Source: Candidatus Auribacterota bacterium
GTDB taxonomy: Bacteria > Auribacterota > Tritonobacteria > UBA1439
DNA: 58,367 bases
Reading direction: 5' to 3'
Assembly (NCBI GenBank): GCA_026392035.1
Contig: JAPLCX010000047.1
Location: forward strand, 1 to 58,367
The translations under genes were made by a program, and so were the position numbers. Of this stretch, positions 45,670-58,048 are shown one piece after another. Every line of letters starts with the position of its first letter. The stretch's first letter is position 1. The notes beneath the pieces were generated by a model. That model made no database searches and was not told the origin of the DNA. It saw only the letters and a list, made by a program, of their open reading frames with translations.

Positions 45670-47265
45670 TCACCCGAAGAGCTCCATCTGGCGTTGCACA
45701 GCGGACTTCAGCTCAGGCCAGCGCGCAATAAACGGTGCTGCCGAAATGCGGCCCAACTCACTCGGCTCAATCTTGTTGAGCCCACCGCCGTAGACGCGTC
45801 CCTCTCCGCGCAGCTCGTACCCGGTGACACATCGCAAGAACTCGTGGATCGCTGCGCCACACTCTGGTTGTAGGCGCAGTTTCGCGGCGAGGGTGCTCTG
45901 TGGATACAGCATGAGGTAGAGGTTCGTCCCTATGGCGGCCGAGCGGTTCCAGATGAAGCGAAACGGTTGCTTTTCCTCGGCGCCCCGACCCATGTACGTG
46001 CAAAGGAAGGGCGCAGGCAACCGTTGCTCCTGCCTGTACCACGGCGAGCGCTTACTGACGAGATAACCGTCTTTGATCCCCAGCGCCTCGGCGGTTTGCA
46101 GGTATGCCCAAAGGGCCGGGTACTTGGCCTCAACAACATGCTCCGGCAGCTCGCAGTCGATGACGCAGAACTGTGGGTCGATCAGCGGGTAACCATCCTC
46201 GTCGGCATTGATGATCGTCGCCTTGAGGTGGCGCGGGCTGGGGAGGATGGGGCGCAGGAACTTCTTCGGTAGGCCGCGTCTGGCCGCGTCGGTCCGCTCA
46301 AGGACGAAGAACTTGTTGCTACCCGTGGCGATACCGCGCTGGATTCGAAACAAGTCGCCGAGCGTTGGCCCTTCGCCGTTCGTGGATGTGCGACGGTCGT
46401 TCCTAGCGTGCTCGGGGTACACGGTCCACTTGCGTGAGTCGCGCAGTCGGTCGAGCGTGACGGATTCGCGGGCGTGCGGCTGAGCCATCGTGCCACCGAA
46501 GGTAAACTCCACGGTATGTTCGCGTGGCGGGGGCGCCTTGTGGAACACCAAGACGACGGATGAGACCAAAGCGTCGCCGAACTGCACATCTTCGGCGTCA
46601 AAACGATGAACGCGGAGAAGCTCCACGCGGTCCGTCAGGAAGCGTTTGAGCGCCGCGCCGTAGTTGACGTCCATGAACTCGGAGGGGATAAGCCACGCGG
46701 CATAGCCGCCTTCCTCCATCCACGCCGTGGCGAGAAGGAGGAAGTAAACGTACAGACCCGCAAGGCCGTTGACCTCGACGCCCGTCATCCGGTGCGTGAG
46801 GGCTTGCAGGCGTTCCTTGTCCTCGCGCTCCAAGTGATGATGCCGGACGTAAGGCGGGTTGGCGAGGATCAGGTTAGGCGCGACCGGGCGGCTGCTGCTT
46901 GCGACGATGCGGGTAAAGTCGCCCCGCATCACATCAAGGCCCGCCTCCGCCCACAGGTCGCGGGCGGCATCACAAAAGCCGGGATCGAGTTCGACGCCAA
47001 CGGCTTTCTCGATTTGCTCGGGACCGAAAACGGCGAGCGCGGCGCTGTAGAAGCTGCCAGTGCCAACGGAGGGGTCGGCGAAATGGACCGCGCGGAGACG
47101 GCGGCCCGCAATGGACCGAACGTAGCGGGCAATCTCGATCGCGAGGGCGTTGGGAGTCGCGAATTGACCGAGGCGGTTCCTCTCGGCGGGCGACTTCCTT
47201 GCATCGAGCGCCGCCTGCATGGCCTGTCGTCGAGCTTCAATCGTGTTCTCGTGTCGCATAATCAT
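45670..47265 (-). CDS. type II N6-adenine DNA methyltransferase (XamI-like)
   Basis: About 531 residues from ATG 47265 (ATG 47259 also possible); the longer frame overlaps the endonuclease gene. The SAM motif I is '[16 protein letters not shown]' and catalytic motif IV is '[13 protein letters not shown]' (about residues 136-139 for NPPY). A C-terminal target-recognition half follows (about 260-531, '[16 protein letters not shown]'). The fused MTase-TRD layout is usual for type II gamma-class enzymes. It starts five bases after the endonuclease stop, so both are co-expressed. It would methylate adenine in the site cut by the partner, protecting the host. XamI-type specificity is inferred from the partner. 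Confidence 0.85.
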
Positions 47266-47270
47266 CGGTG

Positions 47271-48230
47271 TTATAGCCCCAGCTTCGCGAGGTCCTCGAT
47301 CCGGTGCTCCCACACCCAGTCGATCCCCTCGGCAGCTTCGTAGCCCAGATAGTCGCTGCCAAAGTACCCACAGAGAAAGAGCACGAACGCCACGGTCGCG
47401 CCGTAGGTTGCCTGCAACTGGTGAATCTTGGTCGCCTCCTCCTTGCGGCGCTTGTTGGTGTTCGTGAAGTCGCCCGCCGACTTGGCTTCGATGAGAATCG
47501 GGAGCCGATCCTTGCGGGGCTTTCTGGGCTGAATCACCACGTCAACGGGAATGTTCACCTTGAGCACTCTGCCGACAGGTAGATTCATTCGAAACGAGTA
47601 GGTGCCAGGCTCCATGTCTATCAGTGGTTTCCCAGCCGGATGCGCCTGCTTGCGATAGCCTCGGTTGTCCAAGTACTTACCGATCAGTACGAGTTGGCGC
47701 TGCTCCTGAGCATTGCGGACGATCGGGTTGGCGACCGCGCTGCATAGGCGATCGGCAACGATCGTGGCTGCTCGTTCACGTTCGTGGTCGTTGGGGTTCC
47801 GACTCCCGGCGAGCCACGGGAAGATGTCGCGGTCCAACAGTTTCACCAAGATGCGGCACAGGGCTTTCAACTCGGTGTCGAGATCTGCACCAGGCATCCG
47901 TGCGGGGAGCTTTGCCTTTTCCATCCGGCTGACGAGATTCTTGCTCGCTTTGGCAAGCCCGATCAAACGGTCTACTGCCAAGGGTGGAGCCGTGCACATG
48001 CGGAGCGTTGGCAACGCTCCGGGGTTACTTCGCAAGGTTGCCGCATCGAGGTTCCGGAGGTCGTTTGTGGCAAGGAGCGCCGTCTTGACGTGCTCGGTCG
48101 TCTCCACCCGTGTGGAACGGAACGCCTGGGGCGCAAATCGCATGAACCACTGGTTGAATTGGTCAACAGAGGCCGCGATGTCGGCCTTCCACAGGTGCGG
48201 CTTGTTCGAGTTGATCCTTCGAGCCTTCAT
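47271..48230 (-). CDS. type II restriction endonuclease, XamI-like
   Basis: A 319-residue protein. The C-terminal third has '[27 protein letters not shown]', a PD-(D/E)XK nuclease core (D...ExK), followed by '[33 protein letters not shown]', typical of XamI-family enzymes. The helical N-terminal half may handle site recognition. Gene order endonuclease then methyltransferase, tightly spaced, forms a complete R-M system within one cassette, between attC-like sites B and A. XamI proper recognises GTCGAC; that specificity is not proven here. Confidence 0.78.
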
Positions 48231-51886: not shown

Positions 51887-51998
51887 GCCTAAAGTTGAAA
51901 GTGTAAAGTTTAAGGATTTTTCAATGTCACCAATAAACTTTTCACCCTAATATGGCTTTGGACGCTTTAAACTTTCAACCTTACACTTTCGACTGTAG
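51887..51998. repeat. palindromic 3' element, argF copy
   Basis: About 110 bases running from CCTAAAGTTGAAAGTGTAAA to TTCAACCTTACACTTTCGAC, inverted relative to each other. On the minus strand it begins CTACAGTCGAAAGTGTAAGG and supplies the last codons and stop of argF. The same element ends the carbamoyltransferase gene at 55890. Confidence 0.8.
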
Positions 51999-52919
51999 TA
52001 AGAGCGCCATGATCCCCTTCTGCACATGGAGGCGGTTTTCGGCCTGGTCGAAGATTATGGAAGCGGGGCCGTCGAGCACCTCATCCGTCGCCTCCTCGCC
52101 TCTGTGGGCCGGGAGGCAGTGCATCACCCTGGCACCCTTCTTGGCCTTTGACATGAGCCGCCCATTCACCCGGAATGGCTCGAAGATCTTCAGCCTCTTC
52201 TCGCGTTCTTTCTCCTGTCCCATGCTCGCCCAGACATCGGTATAGATGATATCGGCATCCGACACCGCCTTCGCCGGATCCCTTTCAATACATAGTTTCG
52301 CTCCCGCTCTTTTCGCCGCCGCCCAGATCTCCCTGTCCGGCTCGAATCCCGTGGGGGAACAGATAGTAAACGTGAAATCGAGTTTCGCGGCGGCCTCCAC
52401 CCAGGAGTTTGCCACGTTGTTGCCGTCACCGATGAACGTGACCTTGATATCGTCGAGGCGCGGAGCGTTCACGTCCCTGTGGAAATGCTCCAGCACCGTG
52501 TAGATATCGCCGAGCACCTGGCACGGGTGGAGGAGGTCCGTGAGGCCGTTGATCACCGGGATTGAGGCGTGGTTGGCAAGTTCGATCACATCCTGATGGC
52601 TGAAGGTCCGTATCATGATCCCGTTCAGGTAGCGGGACAGGGTCCTCGCGGTATCAGCGATGGTTTCTCCCCGGCCGAGTTGAAGGTCGCCCGCGCCGAG
52701 ATAGAGGGCGTGTCCGCCGAGCTGGAACATCCCCACCTCGAATGAAACCCTCGTGCGCGTGGACGGCTTATGGAAAATCATGCCGAGGGTCTTCCCCGCG
52801 AGCACGGGGGTGGGCGTGCCCCTCTTCAGCTTATCCTTGAGCTCTTTTGTCCTGGAAAAGATTTCCAATATCTCTCCCCTATCGAGTGCGTCAATGCTGA
52901 TCAGGTCCTTACTCTTCAT
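51981..52919 (-). CDS. argF: ornithine carbamoyltransferase
   Basis: A 312-residue enzyme starting at ATG 52919, with GGAGG five bases upstream. It makes citrulline from ornithine and carbamoyl phosphate (arginine synthesis, or the reverse in catabolism). It has carbamoyl-phosphate sites 'STRTR' (about 53-57), 'LLHPCQ' and 'HCLPAHRGEE', and the ornithine loop 'TDVWASMGQ' (D-x-x-x-SMG). These classical motifs mark the canonical ornithine type, unlike the two paralogs at 55890 and 57032. The last residues 'LQSKV' and stop lie in a palindromic repeat. Without other arginine genes here the direction is uncertain. Confidence 0.93.
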   Translation of the reverse strand: MKSKDLISIDALDRGEILEIFSRTKELKDKLKRGTPTPVLAGKTLGMIFHKPSTRTRVSFEVGMFQLGGHALYLGAGDLQLGRGETIADTARTLSRYLNGIMIRTFSHQDVIELANHASIPVINGLTDLLHPCQVLGDIYTVLEHFHRDVNAPRLDDIKVTFIGDGNNVANSWVEAAAKLDFTFTICSPTGFEPDREIWAAAKRAGAKLCIERDPAKAVSDADIIYTDVWASMGQEKEREKRLKIFEPFRVNGRLMSKAKKGARVMHCLPAHRGEEATDEVLDGPASIIFDQAENRLHVQKGIMALLLQSKV

Positions 52920-52947
52920 TGATTCCTCCATAACAACGTTAAATTCT

Positions 52948-53135: not shown

Positions 53136-54374
53136 TTATTCGATGCCGGCACCGCCGATGGCCTTCTTCAGGCTGTCCAGATCGGGCTCGATGGAGATTG
53201 TCCGGCCGGCGATCTTCATGGCGGTATCGACATCCTTGAGCCCGTTCCCCGTGATCAGGCATACGATCCTCTCCGATCCCGACAAATCCCCCTTGGCGAT
53301 GAGCTTCTTCAATCCCGCCACACTCGTCGCGCCCGCGGGCTCGGCAAATATGCCGCACGTCCGGGCGAGCAGCGGTATTGTGTCTAGAATCTCCTCGTCG
53401 CGCACCGTGACGGCCATGCCCTCCGATTCCCTCACCGCGCGCACCGCCATATCACCGTCCCTCGGGAGGTCAACGGATATGCTGTCGGCGATCGTCGTCG
53501 CCTTCACCGGGCGGATGACGCCGTCGCCATTCACCGCGTCCGCCACGGCGCTGCTCTTCTCGGACTGGACGGCGACGAGCTTTGGCATGCTATGGATCAG
53601 TCCCACACCCTGCAGGTCCCTGAATCCCTTCCATATGCCACTGATGATGTTCCCGTCGCCGACAGGCACAAATACGAGATCGGGAACCTCCCAGTTCAAC
53701 TGCTCGCATATCTCGAATGAGCAGCTCTTCTTCCCCTCGCGCGTGTAGGGATTGTAGCCGGTGTTCCGGTTGTACCACCCGTACTCCTCTGCCGCCTCGA
53801 GGCATAGATCGAAGGCGTCATCGTAGGAGCCCTTCACGGCGAATACCTTTGCGCCGAAGATGAGGAGCTGGGCGATCTTGGCCTTCGGGGCCGTCTCGGG
53901 GACAAAGATGATCGGGCTCAGGCCGATGCTCGCGCAGAGGCACGCGGTTGACGATGCCGCGTTGCCTGTCGAGGCGCCGCATATTTTGTTGAAGCCGAGA
54001 TCGAGGGCCTTCGCAATGGCCACCGAGCTGGCCCTGTCCTTAAATGACGCGCTCGGGTTCCTCCCGTCATCCTTGAGGAAAAGTGTCTTGATCCCAAGCC
54101 GACTGGCGAGTGCTTCAGCCCGGTAGAGGGGGCTCCACCCGATTGCGAGCGGCATGATCGTGGAATGGTCTTCCAGGGGATAGAGATCCCAGTAGCGCCA
54201 GACTGAGAAATCGGTATTCGCCGCCAGGGTCTCGCGCGTGAGCCTTTTGCGGATGGCGGCGTAGTCATACACGACATCGAGGTTCTTCCCGCAGCGGTCG
54301 CACACGTAGCGCATGCCGCGGGCCTCAAACTCCCGCCCGCAGCCGGTGCACTTCAATCCGAGAACGTGGTGCAT
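53136..54374 (-). CDS. thrC: threonine synthase
   Basis: A 412-residue PLP fold-type II enzyme converting O-phosphohomoserine to threonine. An N-terminal zinc ribbon (Cys9, 12, 25, 28) leads into the catalytic domain, with the Schiff-base Lys112 in 'NPSASFKDRASS' and 'GASTGNAASSTACLC' binding the cofactor phosphate. The ribbon-bearing form is common in archaea and many bacteria. Its place between carbamate kinase and argF is unusual. A related PLP lyase role (as for YgeX in the E. coli ygeW locus) cannot be excluded, but motifs favour threonine synthase. Confidence 0.85.
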   Translation of the reverse strand: MHHVLGLKCTGCGREFEARGMRYVCDRCGKNLDVVYDYAAIRKRLTRETLAANTDFSVWRYWDLYPLEDHSTIMPLAIGWSPLYRAEALASRLGIKTLFLKDDGRNPSASFKDRASSVAIAKALDLGFNKICGASTGNAASSTACLCASIGLSPIIFVPETAPKAKIAQLLIFGAKVFAVKGSYDDAFDLCLEAAEEYGWYNRNTGYNPYTREGKKSCSFEICEQLNWEVPDLVFVPVGDGNIISGIWKGFRDLQGVGLIHSMPKLVAVQSEKSSAVADAVNGDGVIRPVKATTIADSISVDLPRDGDMAVRAVRESEGMAVTVRDEEILDTIPLLARTCGIFAEPAGATSVAGLKKLIAKGDLSGSERIVCLITGNGLKDVDTAMKIAGRTISIEPDLDSLKKAIGGAGIE

Positions 54375-54458: not shown

Positions 54459-55430
54459 CTATCCGTTCACGGGGTCGGGGACAATCCGGGTCCCCGCCTT
54501 CCCTAGGAGGGCATCGATCGCCTTATCCAGGCTGGTGATGATGGCGCACTGGCCGCCCCACTCCATGAATCGTATGCACGCGAGCACCTTGGGCCCCATG
54601 CTGCCCGCCTTGAAATGACCCTCCTTGTGGAGCTTCTTTATCTCCGAGAGGGTGACGCTCCTTACCGGTTTTTCCTGAGGGGTTCCGAAGTTGATCCGCG
54701 CGGCGTCCACGTCGGTGAGGATGAGGAAGATGTCAGCCCCGACGACCTCGGCGAGCCGCTCGCCGGCCTTGTCCTTGTCTATGACGGCCGCGGTCCCCCT
54801 CAGGTTATCGTTCTTGTCATACACCACGGGGACACCGCCGCCGCCCGAGGCAATGACGACGATCCCAGAATCCACCATGCGCCGTATGGCGACGTACTCC
54901 ATGTTTCTGATCGGGTCTGGAGACGCCACGACGCGCCGGAACCGTTTCGCGACACTCTTTGGCTTGACTTCCTTGATGACGTAGTCAGGGCGCTCCTTTT
55001 TGATCCTCGCGGCCTCCTCCTCTGCATAGAACGGGCCGACCGGCTTGCTGGGGTCCTGGTAGTCCGGGTCGTCCTCGCTCACGAGCACCTGGTTCACGAT
55101 GGACACCACGGGGAGCGGCAGCTTCTCTTTCCAGAGCATGTTCTGCATGGTCTGCTGGAACATGTATCCGATCTGCCCCTGCGTCATCGCGCCGACGATG
55201 TCGAGCGGCTGGGCGGGCACTTCGCCGGTCGCCGCTTCCTGCTGGAGGAGCAGATTCCCCGCCTGCGGGCCGTTGCCATGGGTGATCACGAGCCGGTGAC
55301 CGTACTTCAGCATGCTCACGAGCTGCGTGCTGGTGATCTCGACGTTCCTGAGCTGATCCTCGGCCGTGCCCTTCTCATCGGCCTGTTTGATCGCGTTGCC
55401 TCCCAGCGCCACCACAATCACTTTTCTCAT
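54459..55430 (-). CDS. arcC: carbamate kinase
   Basis: A 323-residue amino-acid-kinase-fold enzyme catalysing carbamoyl phosphate + ADP to ATP + carbamate. It has 'VVALGGNAIKQ' at the N-terminus, 'LVITHGNGPQAGNLL' near residue 50, and 'VIASGGGGVPVV' and 'IDKDKAGERLAEVV' further on. AGGAGG lies upstream of the ATG. Together with carbamoyltransferases this enables ATP gain from carbamoyl-compound breakdown. No arginine deiminase (arcA) is present in the window. Confidence 0.94.
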   Translation of the reverse strand: MRKVIVVALGGNAIKQADEKGTAEDQLRNVEITSTQLVSMLKYGHRLVITHGNGPQAGNLLLQQEAATGEVPAQPLDIVGAMTQGQIGYMFQQTMQNMLWKEKLPLPVVSIVNQVLVSEDDPDYQDPSKPVGPFYAEEEAARIKKERPDYVIKEVKPKSVAKRFRRVVASPDPIRNMEYVAIRRMVDSGIVVIASGGGGVPVVYDKNDNLRGTAAVIDKDKAGERLAEVVGADIFLILTDVDAARINFGTPQEKPVRSVTLSEIKKLHKEGHFKAGSMGPKVLACIRFMEWGGQCAIITSLDKAIDALLGKAGTRIVPDPVNG

Positions 55431-55503: not shown

Positions 55504-55782
55504 TCAGTGCCCCGGGGGAGGCCGGTCACCGGGAAGGGCAGTTTTTCTCTTCTGCATGCGGGAGGAGATTGCCCAGCTCCCGCACACAAGGACAATGGAT
55601 GCCACCACAAAGCTCACGATCTGTATCGACAACCTGAAGCGCAAAATCGCCTCCACCAGCGCGAGCAACGCGGCGAGGCCGAGATAGAACAGATATGAAC
55701 CCATCTTCATCCACGCGCCCAGCATCAAAATGACGACCACAATGCTCCACGCGAGCCAGTGCTGCACCATATAAGGATCCAT
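55504..55782 (-). CDS. short NfeD-like membrane protein
   Basis: A 92-residue protein with three hydrophobic segments (about 8-24, 29-46, 50-70) patterned like the membrane part of NfeD/YbbK proteins: 'WLAWSIVVVILMLGAWM', 'YLFYLGLAALLALVEAIL'. The OB-fold that usually follows is absent; instead a short basic tail ends the protein. It lies between carbamate kinase and the second carbamoyltransferase gene in the same direction. Role unknown. Confidence 0.6.
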   Translation of the reverse strand: MDPYMVQHWLAWSIVVVILMLGAWMKMGSYLFYLGLAALLALVEAILRFRLSIQIVSFVVASIVLVCGSWAISSRMQKRKTALPGDRPPPGH

Positions 55783-55889: not shown

Positions 55890-56900
55890 TCAGGCCATGG
55901 TGAGGGCCATGATCGCCTTCTGAACATGCAGGCGATTTTCCGCGACGTCGTAGATGATCGAGCGCGGCCCGCTCGCAACCTCATCGGTCACCTCGTTCCC
56001 ACGGTCGATCGGCATCGGGTGCGTGAACAGCGCGTTGTTGGTGAGCCTCATCTTCGCCGCGTCGCATATCCATTCCGTGTACTTCATGGCCTTCTCAACC
56101 TCGCCCTGCTTGTCGAACTCGCCCTTGTCATAGGCGTGCGGGGTCATCCAGTTGCGGGAGTACACCACATCCGCTCCCCGGTACCCCGCTCTCGGATCGT
56201 GGGTAATCGCAAATTTCGCCTTGTTGTCAGCGCAGTTCTTCTTCACCTGCTCGATCACGGCGGGGTCCAGGTCATACCCCTCGGGGTACGCGAGCGTGAC
56301 ATCCATGCCGAAGCGCGAGCAGATGAGCAAGCTCTCCTGGACGGAGCACCACGATCGGGCGAGCGCTCCCTGCCCCCACACCTGGAGCAGCTTTTTGCCC
56401 TTGATGTTCTTCCCGAGGTGCTTCCTGAGTCCCATGACGTCTGCCAGCCCCTGACAGGGGTGAAACTTGTCATGCGCCATGCTGATGACCGGGATATCAG
56501 ACCACCGTGCGTACTCGCGGATCAGCTCGTCACCTTCCCCGTACCGGCTCACCTTGTCCTCGAGTATCCGTATCCCGAGACCGCATGCGTAGCGACTCAT
56601 CACCTTCGCCGCGTCCTCAACCGTCTCACCGGCGGTCTTCGCCGTCTTGAGCCGCATCGTCTTGGGCTCGAGGAACTGCGCGTGCCCACCCAGTTCGGTG
56701 GCGGCGCACTCGAAACTCTGGCGCGTGCGGACCGATGGGTTATAGAAGAACATGAAGAATGTCTTGTTCAGCAAAAGCTTCGTATACTTTTTATCATAGC
56801 GCTTCTTGCGCATATGCTCGGCCAAGTCGAGAACCTTGGTAAGTTCCTTCACTGACCACTCCTGCGTGCACACCAGGTCTCTTCCCGTTAAATCTGACAT
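55890..56900 (-). CDS. divergent carbamoyltransferase, knotted AOTC/YgeW-like
   Basis: A 336-residue aspartate/ornithine carbamoyltransferase superfamily protein. Carbamoyl-phosphate motif is 'NPSVRTRQSFE' (56-60 SVRTR, versus STRTR). HPCQ is intact (147-150), but HCLP is replaced by HPMP (294-297). The ornithine loop SMG is absent; the aligned segment is 'VVYSRNWMTPHAYDK'. 'RFGMDVTLAYPEGYDL' is close to E. coli YgeW. So a substrate other than ornithine is likely, such as an acylated ornithine or a ureido compound. It lies between the third paralog and the NfeD-like gene. A repeat follows its stop directly. Confidence 0.8.
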   Translation of the reverse strand: MSDLTGRDLVCTQEWSVKELTKVLDLAEHMRKKRYDKKYTKLLLNKTFFMFFYNPSVRTRQSFECAATELGGHAQFLEPKTMRLKTAKTAGETVEDAAKVMSRYACGLGIRILEDKVSRYGEGDELIREYARWSDIPVISMAHDKFHPCQGLADVMGLRKHLGKNIKGKKLLQVWGQGALARSWCSVQESLLICSRFGMDVTLAYPEGYDLDPAVIEQVKKNCADNKAKFAITHDPRAGYRGADVVYSRNWMTPHAYDKGEFDKQGEVEKAMKYTEWICDAAKMRLTNNALFTHPMPIDRGNEVTDEVASGPRSIIYDVAENRLHVQKAIMALTMA

Positions 56901-57031: not shown

Positions 57032-58042
57032 TCACATCGTCAACGCCATAATGGCCTTCTGGACATGCAGGCGGTTCTCCGCCTCGTCGTTCACGATGGA
57101 TATCTTCGGATCGTCGATGAGCTCGTCCGTCACTTCCTTGCCGCGCTTCGCGGGCAGGCAGTGCATGTAGACGGCACGTGAATTGGCCACCTCGAAATGC
57201 TTGTGAGAGATGCACCAGTCCTTTGCGTACTTCGGACCCTTCTCAGCGTGGACGTCCGGCTTCCGCGCCCAGCTCTTGCAGTAGATCACGTCGGCGCCCT
57301 TACAGGCCTTCCATATGTCATGCTCAACGGTGATCCTACCGCCGGATTCCTTCGCCGCTGCCTGAGCAAATTTCAAGTACTCCGGGTCTATGTCGTAGCA
57401 TCCCGCCTCGTCCGGGAAGGCCAGGACGATGTTCATCCCCATGATGCCGCCGGCCACGACCATCGTTTGCGGCACGCCCGCGGACTTGGCCCTGTCGTCC
57501 CACGCCCATCCCATGACGACCTTCTTCTCCTTGTAGCCCTGGCCGAACTTCTCCCGCATGGTCATGATGTCGGCCATGATCTGGCAGGGGTGCTCCTTGT
57601 CGTCGAGCATGTTGATCACCGGGATGTTCGCGTCCTTCGCGATGGCGCACAGCACCTCGCGCGCGTCGCCGTAGTCGTATTTCTCGGCACCCATCTGGGC
57701 CTTGAGGTTGTAGAGCCGGATCGCGAAGCCGTCGATGAAGCGGCTGATCATCTCGGCCGTATCCTTCCACGACTCCTTGTTCTTGAGCTGGAGCTGCTCG
57801 GGACTGTAGTACTGCGCGTGCCCGCCGAGCTGCGTCATGCCCGTTTCAAAAGAGATGCGCGTCCTGGTTGACGGGGACGCGAACAGCATTCCCAGCGTTT
57901 TCCCCTTGAGAAGCTCGTGCGATTCACCGATGGCCCACTTCATCTTGAGGTACTGGGCCACCTCGAAAATGCTCTCGATCTCCTCCAGATTGTAATCCAT
58001 GATGCTTATAAAATCCTTGCCCCTCATCCTCCTGGTAATCAC
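57032..58042 (-). CDS. carbamoyltransferase, knotted AOTC/SOTC/YgeW-like
   Basis: About 336 residues. GTG 58042 is taken as start since GGAGG lies eight bases upstream; ATG 58027 is possible. Carbamoyl-phosphate motifs are complete: 'SPSTRTRISFE', 'EHPCQIMADIM' and 'MHCLPAKRGKEV'. The ornithine SMG loop is replaced by 'VIYCKSWARKPDVHAEKG', the K-S-W arrangement seen in YgeW and N-acetylornithine transcarbamylases. 'MGWAWDDRAKSAGVPQTM' fits their knot region. A catalytic enzyme with a non-ornithine acceptor is likely. First gene of the carbamoyl block; its promoter should lie beyond 58050. Confidence 0.82.
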   Translation of the reverse strand: MITRRMRGKDFISIMDYNLEEIESIFEVAQYLKMKWAIGESHELLKGKTLGMLFASPSTRTRISFETGMTQLGGHAQYYSPEQLQLKNKESWKDTAEMISRFIDGFAIRLYNLKAQMGAEKYDYGDAREVLCAIAKDANIPVINMLDDKEHPCQIMADIMTMREKFGQGYKEKKVVMGWAWDDRAKSAGVPQTMVVAGGIMGMNIVLAFPDEAGCYDIDPEYLKFAQAAAKESGGRITVEHDIWKACKGADVIYCKSWARKPDVHAEKGPKYAKDWCISHKHFEVANSRAVYMHCLPAKRGKEVTDELIDDPKISIVNDEAENRLHVQKAIMALTM

Positions 58043-58048
58043 GTCCAC

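Follow-up and report, generated by a model that had tools for sequence, protein, structure and literature searches.

The window, by which we mean the whole stretch of 58,367 nucleotides analysed here (Candidatus Auribacterota bacterium, contig JAPLCX010000047.1), carries on its minus strand a cassette in the order p2, q, a small membrane-type ORF, a carbamate kinase, a PLP enzyme annotated as ‘threonine synthase’ and an ordinary ornithine carbamoyltransferase (OTC), where q is the carbamoyltransferase under study and p2 a second one (Table 1). Carbamate kinase uses carbamoyl phosphate and ADP to make ATP. The OTC of the window could use carbamoyl phosphate for arginine and is probably not part of the catabolic step proposed below. 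The ORF between q and the kinase has no Pfam match at E ≤ 0.001, and in L015, a relative of the window, this position is occupied by a 104-aa ORF. Elsewhere in the window (45670–48230, minus strand), an RE_XamI-like restriction endonuclease (Pfam, 348 bits) directly adjoins an Eco57I-type methylase, the two forming a type II restriction–modification pair.

Table 1. Genes of the cassette, in minus-strand order
Feature	Position in window	Strand	Basis
p2, second carbamoyltransferase (STRTR/HPCQ/HCLP)	57032–58048	−	next gene upstream of q, same strand
q, 336-aa carbamoyltransferase of the HPMP clade	55890–56900	−	ORF; Pfam OTCace_N and OTCace; 80 relatives; tree; AlphaFold2 model
92-aa membrane-protein-like ORF	55504–55782	−	ORF call
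Carbamate kinase	54459–55430	−	TIGR00746, 405.9 bits (above cut-off 358.25)
PLP enzyme annotated as threonine synthase	53136–54374	−	PRK08197, 317.5 bits, and TIGR00260, 225.3 bits (both above the threonine-synthase cut-offs)
Ordinary OTC (DVWASMG, HCLP)	51981–52931	−	TIGR00658, 395.1 bits (above cut-off 280.85); motifs

The ORF of q is intact over exactly the interval tabulated, and its Pfam domains OTCace_N (126.8 bits) and OTCace (119.6 bits) both exceed their gathering cut-offs. Its motif letters are YNPSVRTRQSFE, HPCQ and HPMPIDRG, and the strings SVRTR, HPCQ and HPMP given in a preliminary description of this DNA are indeed present. That description also took HCLP and STRTR to be normally invariant, which is wrong: in passages of a review (PMC4581275), the transcarbamylase family is defined by SxRT, HPxQ and HxLP, and the second HxLP residue is variable, being read as HDLP in DPTCase and DBTCase, H(T/S)LP in UGTCase and HPLP or HPGP in ATCases. 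Our own alignment shows HPLP in E. coli PyrB, HALP in a YgeW-like protein of locus L093 and SLRTR in the P3 paralogs described below; N-acetylornithine carbamoyltransferase (AOTC) has SMRTR. The superfamily motifs SxRT and HPxQ are found in q, whereas an HxLP with Leu at the third position is absent from its clade (HPMP or HCGP); as the review allows variation in HxLP, superfamily membership stands on the domains and the other motifs. The less usual motif feature of the q clade is the Met (or Gly) that replaces Leu at this third position. The second HxLP residue is suggested to touch the acceptor in models of DPTCase and UGTCase, and HxLP side chains are described as generally not in direct substrate contact (passages of PMC4581275).

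None of the 16 NCBIfam models listed for q reaches its cut-off. The best score is that of N-acetylornithine carbamoyltransferase NF003384 (249.1 bits, cut-off 288), followed by an ornithine carbamoyltransferase model (223 bits, cut-off 306), whereas TIGR00658 (ornithine carbamoyltransferase), TIGR03316 (YgeW) and TIGR00670 (aspartate carbamoyltransferase, ATC) give 211.1, 115.9 and 101.4 bits against cut-offs of 280.85, 500 and 236.95, respectively. As q scores below these cut-offs, assignments of it as an ordinary OTC, AOTC, ATC or YgeW were rejected. Motif scan and alignment find neither the OTC acceptor motif DxxxSMG nor the ATC acceptor motif RxQxxER in q, and the loop at the DxxxSMG site reads YSRNWMTP. 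The 120’s loop (alignment columns 107–152) is extended, being longer than in OTC and PyrB and similar to that of P3 and YgeW. The loop that is proline-rich in knotted transcarbamylases corresponds to WGQGALARSWCSVQ in q and contains no prolines; in the HMMER alignment, the same loop fits AOTC without a gap.

Conservation, phylogeny and modelled fold of the HPMP clade

A scan across contigs of GTDB genomes yielded 128 regions coding for a relative of q, and the analysis retained the best 80 (59–89% identity). The closest named relatives are Auribacterota bins (88–89% identity), and most of the relatives were recovered from bins that bear the label Auribacterota, Elusimicrobia, Chloroflexi, Deltaproteobacteria, Cloacimonadota, Neomarinimicrobiota, Heimdall-, Thor- and Lokiarchaeota, among others, nearly all genomes examined being metagenome bins. 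Over these best 80 of 128 loci, SVRTR occurs in 71 and SLRTR in nine, HPCQ in 70 and HPFQ in nine (one unmatched by the pattern), and HPMP in 65 and HCGP in 15. Homologs sharing HPMP, for which the preliminary description had proposed a search, are thus found in 65 of the 80 kept loci, and HPMP is the mark of a conserved clade and not of chance or of a broken enzyme. The 15 HCGP carriers are Thor- and Lokiarchaeal loci (L067, L068, L070–L077 and L079–L083). An altered chemistry, which had been read earlier from the loss of the HCLP Cys, is not supported, as ATCases lack that Cys and these 15 of 80 loci have retained one.

The carbamoyl-phosphate residues checked (S56, R58, T59, R60, R111, H147, Q150 and R323) are invariant in all 78 of 78 clade members aligned, as is P148, and H294 and P297 are invariant as well. 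This invariance makes a dead enzyme or a non-catalytic partner unlikely, and q as a degenerate or non-catalytic copy was rejected on these residues; it speaks for a working enzyme with an acceptor of its own. Further residues invariant in 78 of 78 are R182, S183, R249, W251, D299, R300 and E303, and the positions of R182, R249 and D299 are occupied by K, K and D in P3. A part for these three residues in acceptor-side recognition is suggestive only. No equivalence is claimed between R182 and R167 of ATCase (a number also given in passages of PMC4581275), as they fall two columns from each other in the alignment.

In a tree rooted on PyrB as outgroup, the q clade (78 tips, support 0.97) adjoins P3 and E. 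coli YgeW in a group of 115 tips with support 1.0, within which it is P3 and not q that groups with YgeW (support 0.76). The p2 group, which consists of the protein of the window and five others (n = 6, support 0.999), joins next (0.99), and the ornithine enzymes fall outside. An AlphaFold2 model of q built from 47 sequences (mean pLDDT 96) has AOTC, a knotted fold, as its nearest neighbour (Z 44.1, rmsd 1.8, 320 residues, 35% identity), followed by OTC (Z up to 40.4), 2yfk, a YgeW-like protein (40.1), and 3q98, the YgeW of E. coli (37.1). The q clade is a real and conserved branch of the transcarbamylases that is widespread and apparently undescribed; among the PubMed Central matches listed, titles and abstract openings hold no account of this clade, of a variant pathway with two transcarbamylases or of uric-acid breakdown in Asgard archaea.

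Gene neighbourhood and uric-acid genes

The reductive uric-acid pathway was published in 2025, with SsnA as its marker and with a phosphate-dependent removal of a ureido group by YgeW (PMC12507026, in part). According to passages of that paper and of a commentary (PMC12990295), 2,3-diureidopropionate has two ureido groups, one of which is removed in E. coli by YgeW with phosphate and the other by YgeY through hydrolysis, and C. difficile has the hydrolase UacY in place of YgeW; the order and position of the cleavages are listed as open by the commentary. For catabolic transcarbamylases generally, PMC6022934 is a source (in part), and an assayed precedent for phosphorolysis is UGTCase of Rubrobacter xylanophilus (passages of PMC4016543). 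Atribacterial operons that pair a carbamoyltransferase with an ‘allantoinase’ are described in part of PMC6469976 and might be the q cassette.

Neighbourhoods were counted over the best 80 of 128 loci, many of which are short, 67 having at least 1300 bases on both sides and 13 having under 1300 on one side. Carbamate kinase lies at most 700 bp from q in 54 of the 80 and was not seen within 700 bp in the other 26 (13 of the 80 loci having under 1300 bases on one side). A paralog is found within 1200 bp of q in 33 loci, namely P3 in 30 and p2 in three, and in all 33 it lies upstream on the same strand; the gap is at most 250 bp in 30 of these, and the kinase intervenes in L084. Six further loci have P3 or p2 within 8 kb, which in L052 and L061 is downstream, beyond the kinase. 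In the window, p2 stands where most paired loci carry P3. Other genes within 8 kb of q over the 80 loci are the PLP enzyme (22 loci), c2 (20), a YgeY-type M20 gene (nine), OTC (seven), YgfK, Xdh and hydantoinase (six each) and SsnA (one). The protein termed c2 is a 489-aa cysteine-synthase-like PLP protein (L093, 9035–10504) that is near q in L093 and in 19 other loci and near SsnA in L103 and L113; it scores below the cut-offs of all three NCBIfam models listed for it.

Several loci place q among genes of the reductive pathway. An Elusimicrobia locus (L033) has the order SsnA-YgeY-P3-q-kinase-PLP-OTC, with SsnA at 479 bits (cut-off 455.5), and two Cloacimonadota loci (L087 and L093) read YgfK-P3-q-kinase-c2 with Xdh and the PLP enzyme, YgfK of L087 scoring 1420.6 bits (cut-off 835.3) and L093 also having YgeY and a third transcarbamylase before P3. 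Locus L097, which comes from the same family as the window, has OTC-PLP-kinase-q-P3 and, beyond ∼6.4 kb of other genes, SsnA-reductase-Xdh on the same strand. In a Heimdall record labelled chromosome (G066; L055 and L105), q, kinase, P3 and PLP enzyme lie beside an SsnA-like gene within ∼16 kb, the latter scoring 357 bits, below the cut-off. The genome of the window carries on one strand of contig C54 xdhA-xdhC-xdhB, an 865-aa oxidoreductase (Fer4_20, Pyr_redox_2 and a weak similarity to DHO_dh), a methyltransferase-like gene and SsnA, with a hydantoinase on contig C21.

At the genome level, 50 genomes with q were compared with 14 controls, and, separately, 39 genomes (that of the window and 38 relatives) were examined. 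SsnA is matched at E ≤ 1e-60 in 46 of 50 q genomes versus three of 14 controls, a threshold that is not specific, as two methanogen controls match below the cut-off; above the curated cut-off, the counts are 26 of 50 versus one of 14. All 10 Asgard genomes examined match SsnA at E ≤ 1e-60, with 216–372 bits against the cut-off of 455.5. Among the 39 genomes, q (E ≤ 1e-100) and SsnA (above cut-off) coincide in 11 and are both missing from 26, with one genome having q only (G038, 78% complete) and one SsnA only (G006); the Fisher probability is 8e-8 over genomes and 0.027 counted by 16 families, in sets that are phylogenetically uneven. G006, which is of the same class as the window, has SsnA next to a hydantoinase and the PLP enzyme and has no HPMP carbamoyltransferase. 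Through SsnA and the other pathway genes, q is thus linked to the reductive uric-acid pathway, with G006 and G038 as the exceptions.

P3 is present at 480 bits or more in 37 of the 50 q genomes, and additionally in G057, where it is split over two contig ends; p2 is found in six, one of which also has P3. The constant company of a paralog like that at 57032, about which the preliminary description had asked, does not hold for p2 itself (6/50), whereas p2 or the analogous P3 occurs in 43 of 50, and neither was found in the remaining seven. These seven genomes also speak against a purely regulatory q, one without catalysis that would join the upstream paralog in an assembly and tune it, as the same description had suggested in view of the altered motif. 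The close, same-order pairing in 33 of 80 loci and the altered HxLP would fit such a role, yet none of the 78 clade members varies at the carbamoyl-phosphate contacts checked, so that we regard this explanation as highly improbable.

A proposed catabolic role and its alternatives

A new acceptor for q, one of the possibilities raised by the preliminary description, is supported by the failure of q to reach any NCBIfam cut-off, by the absence of the OTC and ATC acceptor motifs and by the purine-catabolic gene context. We conclude that q is very probably catabolic and very probably part of reductive uric-acid breakdown, where it would help anaerobic microbes to gain ATP from uric acid. It is probable, with some reserve, that q cleaves off by phosphorolysis one ureido group of 2,3-diureidopropionate, or of its half-product, with the paralog taking the other. 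The earlier steps of the published pathway convert uric acid to yanthine via an Xdh homolog and proceed through a YgfK/UacX-type reductase, SsnA and a hydantoinase. Running in reverse, q would then use phosphate to break down a ureido acid to carbamoyl phosphate and an amine, its substrate most likely being 2,3-diureidopropionate or the mono-ureido acid that remains once one ureido group has been lost; the neighbouring carbamate kinase would convert the carbamoyl phosphate to ATP. The second ureido group would fall to the upstream paralog (p2 here, P3 in most paired relatives), and 2,3-diaminopropionate would be split into pyruvate and ammonia by the PLP enzyme of the cassette. The gene, its clade, the intact carbamoyl-phosphate residues, the cassette and the link to SsnA are observed here, and the chemistry of the pathway comes from published work; the substrate of q, the ureido group that it removes and the PLP step are what we infer from these data.

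For the last of these steps, YgeX (TIGR03528) is matched at E ≤ 1e-30 in only two of 50 q genomes and two of 14 controls, whereas the PLP enzyme of the cassette has a second, 29%-identical copy in the same genome (G000, contig C42) and relatives that adjoin SsnA or Xdh genes elsewhere, lying beside SsnA in G047, G066 and G087. The scarcity of YgeX, the second copy and the relatives beside SsnA make the PLP enzyme a candidate for the last step, that is, a candidate diaminopropionate ammonia-lyase proposed to stand in for YgeX.

The same genomes allow a pyrimidine role to be weighed, in which q would be a beta-alanine carbamoyltransferase of reductive pyrimidine breakdown that phosphorolyses the N-carbamoyl-beta-alanine released by dihydropyrimidinase, in place of beta-ureidopropionase. 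Such an enzyme is called possible, though unproven, in passages of PMC4581275. The own-genome contig C21 (L111, 4223–9968) carries preT-preA-hydantoinase-class III aminotransferase, and the annotation of that contig includes no beta-ureidopropionase; ureidohydrolases of TIGR01879 (N-carbamoyl-amino-acid/allantoate type) are absent at E ≤ 1e-30 from all 50 q genomes and present in six of 14 controls, an absence that also counts in favour of the uric-acid reading; hydantoinase adjoins P3-q-kinase in L024 and L026; and a hydantoinase-family match (E ≤ 1e-60) is found in 12 of 12 genomes with q versus six of 27 without (Fisher 5e-6). The C21 hydantoinase thus sits in an apparent pyrimidine operon and may primarily serve pyrimidines. 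However, the contig end may truncate this operon. SsnA tracks q more closely than hydantoinase does (11 of 12 genomes with q versus one of 27 without), and in several loci the cassette directly adjoins SsnA, YgfK or xanthine-dehydrogenase genes, none of which is needed for pyrimidine breakdown, making the beta-alanine reaction an unlikely one for q.

Purine breakdown by a different substrate is less probable still. Allantoate (diureidoacetate) also carries two ureido groups, and its phosphorolysis by q, in the manner of the Rubrobacter ureidoglycine carbamoyltransferase (UGTCase), has an assayed precedent in that enzyme (passages of PMC4016543). The clusters nevertheless hold SsnA, YgfK and Xdh of the reductive route, the sole hydantoinase of the loci examined (L024) scores 481 as D-hydantoinase and 322 as allantoinase, and passages of PMC4581275 place UGTCase on the ATCase branch with H(T/S)LP, unlike the q clade. 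We consider allantoate extremely improbable as the substrate.

Within the reductive pathway, the distribution of YgeY bears on how the two ureido groups are shared out. YgeY is matched at E ≤ 1e-30 in 36 of 50 q genomes and above its cut-off in 19, against four and one of the 14 controls, respectively. The genome of the window is among those above the cut-off (448 bits, contig C85), its YgeY lying beside ZnuA/ABC-3 transport genes outside the cassette, and nine of the 50 genomes (G043, G050, G054, G055, G057, G058, G059, G060 and G086) carry YgeY or a relative of it close to q or P3/p2. The 19 genomes above the YgeY cut-off speak for a rival reading in which q would do the job of E. coli YgeW alone, with YgeY hydrolysing the other ureido group and P3/p2 serving a different role, for example on the other enantiomer or on another ureido compound. 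Consistent with this, a YgeY-family match turns up in each of the seven genomes in which P3/p2 was not found, three of these matches being weak (127–162 bits). On the other side, YgeY is missing at E ≤ 1e-30 from 14 of 50 genomes, all 14 of which have P3 or p2, and in 33 of 80 loci P3/p2 precedes q at a distance of 1200 bp or less. An assignment of q to the YgeW job alone therefore appears doubtful, with little probability in our estimate. The complementarity between YgeY and P3/p2 is itself weak (no genome of the 50 lacks both, chance 0.08).

In the simplest form of the proposed role, q would remove one ureido group, and the other would be left to P3/p2 or YgeY. Genomes that have q with P3/p2 and no YgeY would then make two carbamoyl phosphates, and we suggest, tentatively and at somewhat less than even likelihood, that q and its upstream partner constitute a doubly phosphorolytic uric-acid breakdown in which both ureido groups become carbamoyl phosphate and yield two ATP, in many uncultured bacterial phyla and, judging by these bins, in Asgard archaea, beyond the bacterial range reported. 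The YgeY hydrolases of this and other genomes speak against a scheme of strictly two phosphorolyses, and the seven genomes in which neither P3 nor p2 was found count against the proposed role as well. With YgeY present in its own genome, a second phosphorolysis is not forced for the window, and the YgeY relatives near q or P3/p2 in nine genomes imply that hydrolysis and phosphorolysis may coexist. A hydrolytic step could also be taken over by UacY-type N-acyl-D-amino-acid hydrolases or nitrilase-type beta-ureidopropionases. The notion of q as a replacement for YgeY everywhere is unsupported, as YgeY is near q or P3/p2 in several genomes.

If both phosphorolyses do occur, the pathway would give two ATP, compared with one in E. 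coli (YgeW and YgeY) and none in C. difficile (UacY and YgeY), so that purines would supply some uncultured anaerobes with more ATP than E. coli, and many lineages would need a new annotation for the clade, whose members are at present named by best score as N-acetylornithine or ornithine carbamoyltransferase. Genomes with two transcarbamylases, in some of which YgeY was not found, separate the two cleavages genetically and make the question of their order and position testable.

Comparison with known transcarbamylases

Like YgeW of E. coli, itself a knotted carbamoyltransferase, q lies on the same side of the tree (support 1.0), has the same carbamoyl-phosphate motifs and occurs in uric-acid clusters with a carbamate kinase nearby. 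It differs from YgeW, which reads HCLP, in its HPMP/HCGP motif, in an ARSW loop without prolines and in the AENRLH tail that q keeps and E. coli YgeW does not share; it reaches 115.9 bits of the 500 required by the YgeW model, has a Z of 37.1 to 3q98 versus 44.1 to AOTC, and forms a 78-member clade of its own. The N-acetylornithine carbamoyltransferase of Xanthomonas (3m5c/3kzk) provides the closest solved fold to the q model, an extended 120’s loop and the best NCBIfam score, whereas q remains below the cut-off of 288, lacks the proline-rich loop, reads HPMP, has a catabolic neighbourhood and is accompanied in the window by a separate ordinary OTC. With E. coli PyrB (HPLP), q shares HPxP at the HxLP site, but it scores 101.4 bits against the aspartate carbamoyltransferase cut-off of 236.95 and has no RxQxxER, PyrB being the outgroup of the tree. 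In predicted function q resembles UGTCase of Rubrobacter xylanophilus, where a catabolic transcarbamylase with a carbamate kinase phosphorolyses a diureido acid in purine breakdown (passages of PMC4016543), as is predicted here for q; the Rubrobacter enzyme differs in belonging to the ATCase branch, in its allantoate substrate and in its H(T/S)LP motif (passages of PMC4016543 and PMC4581275).
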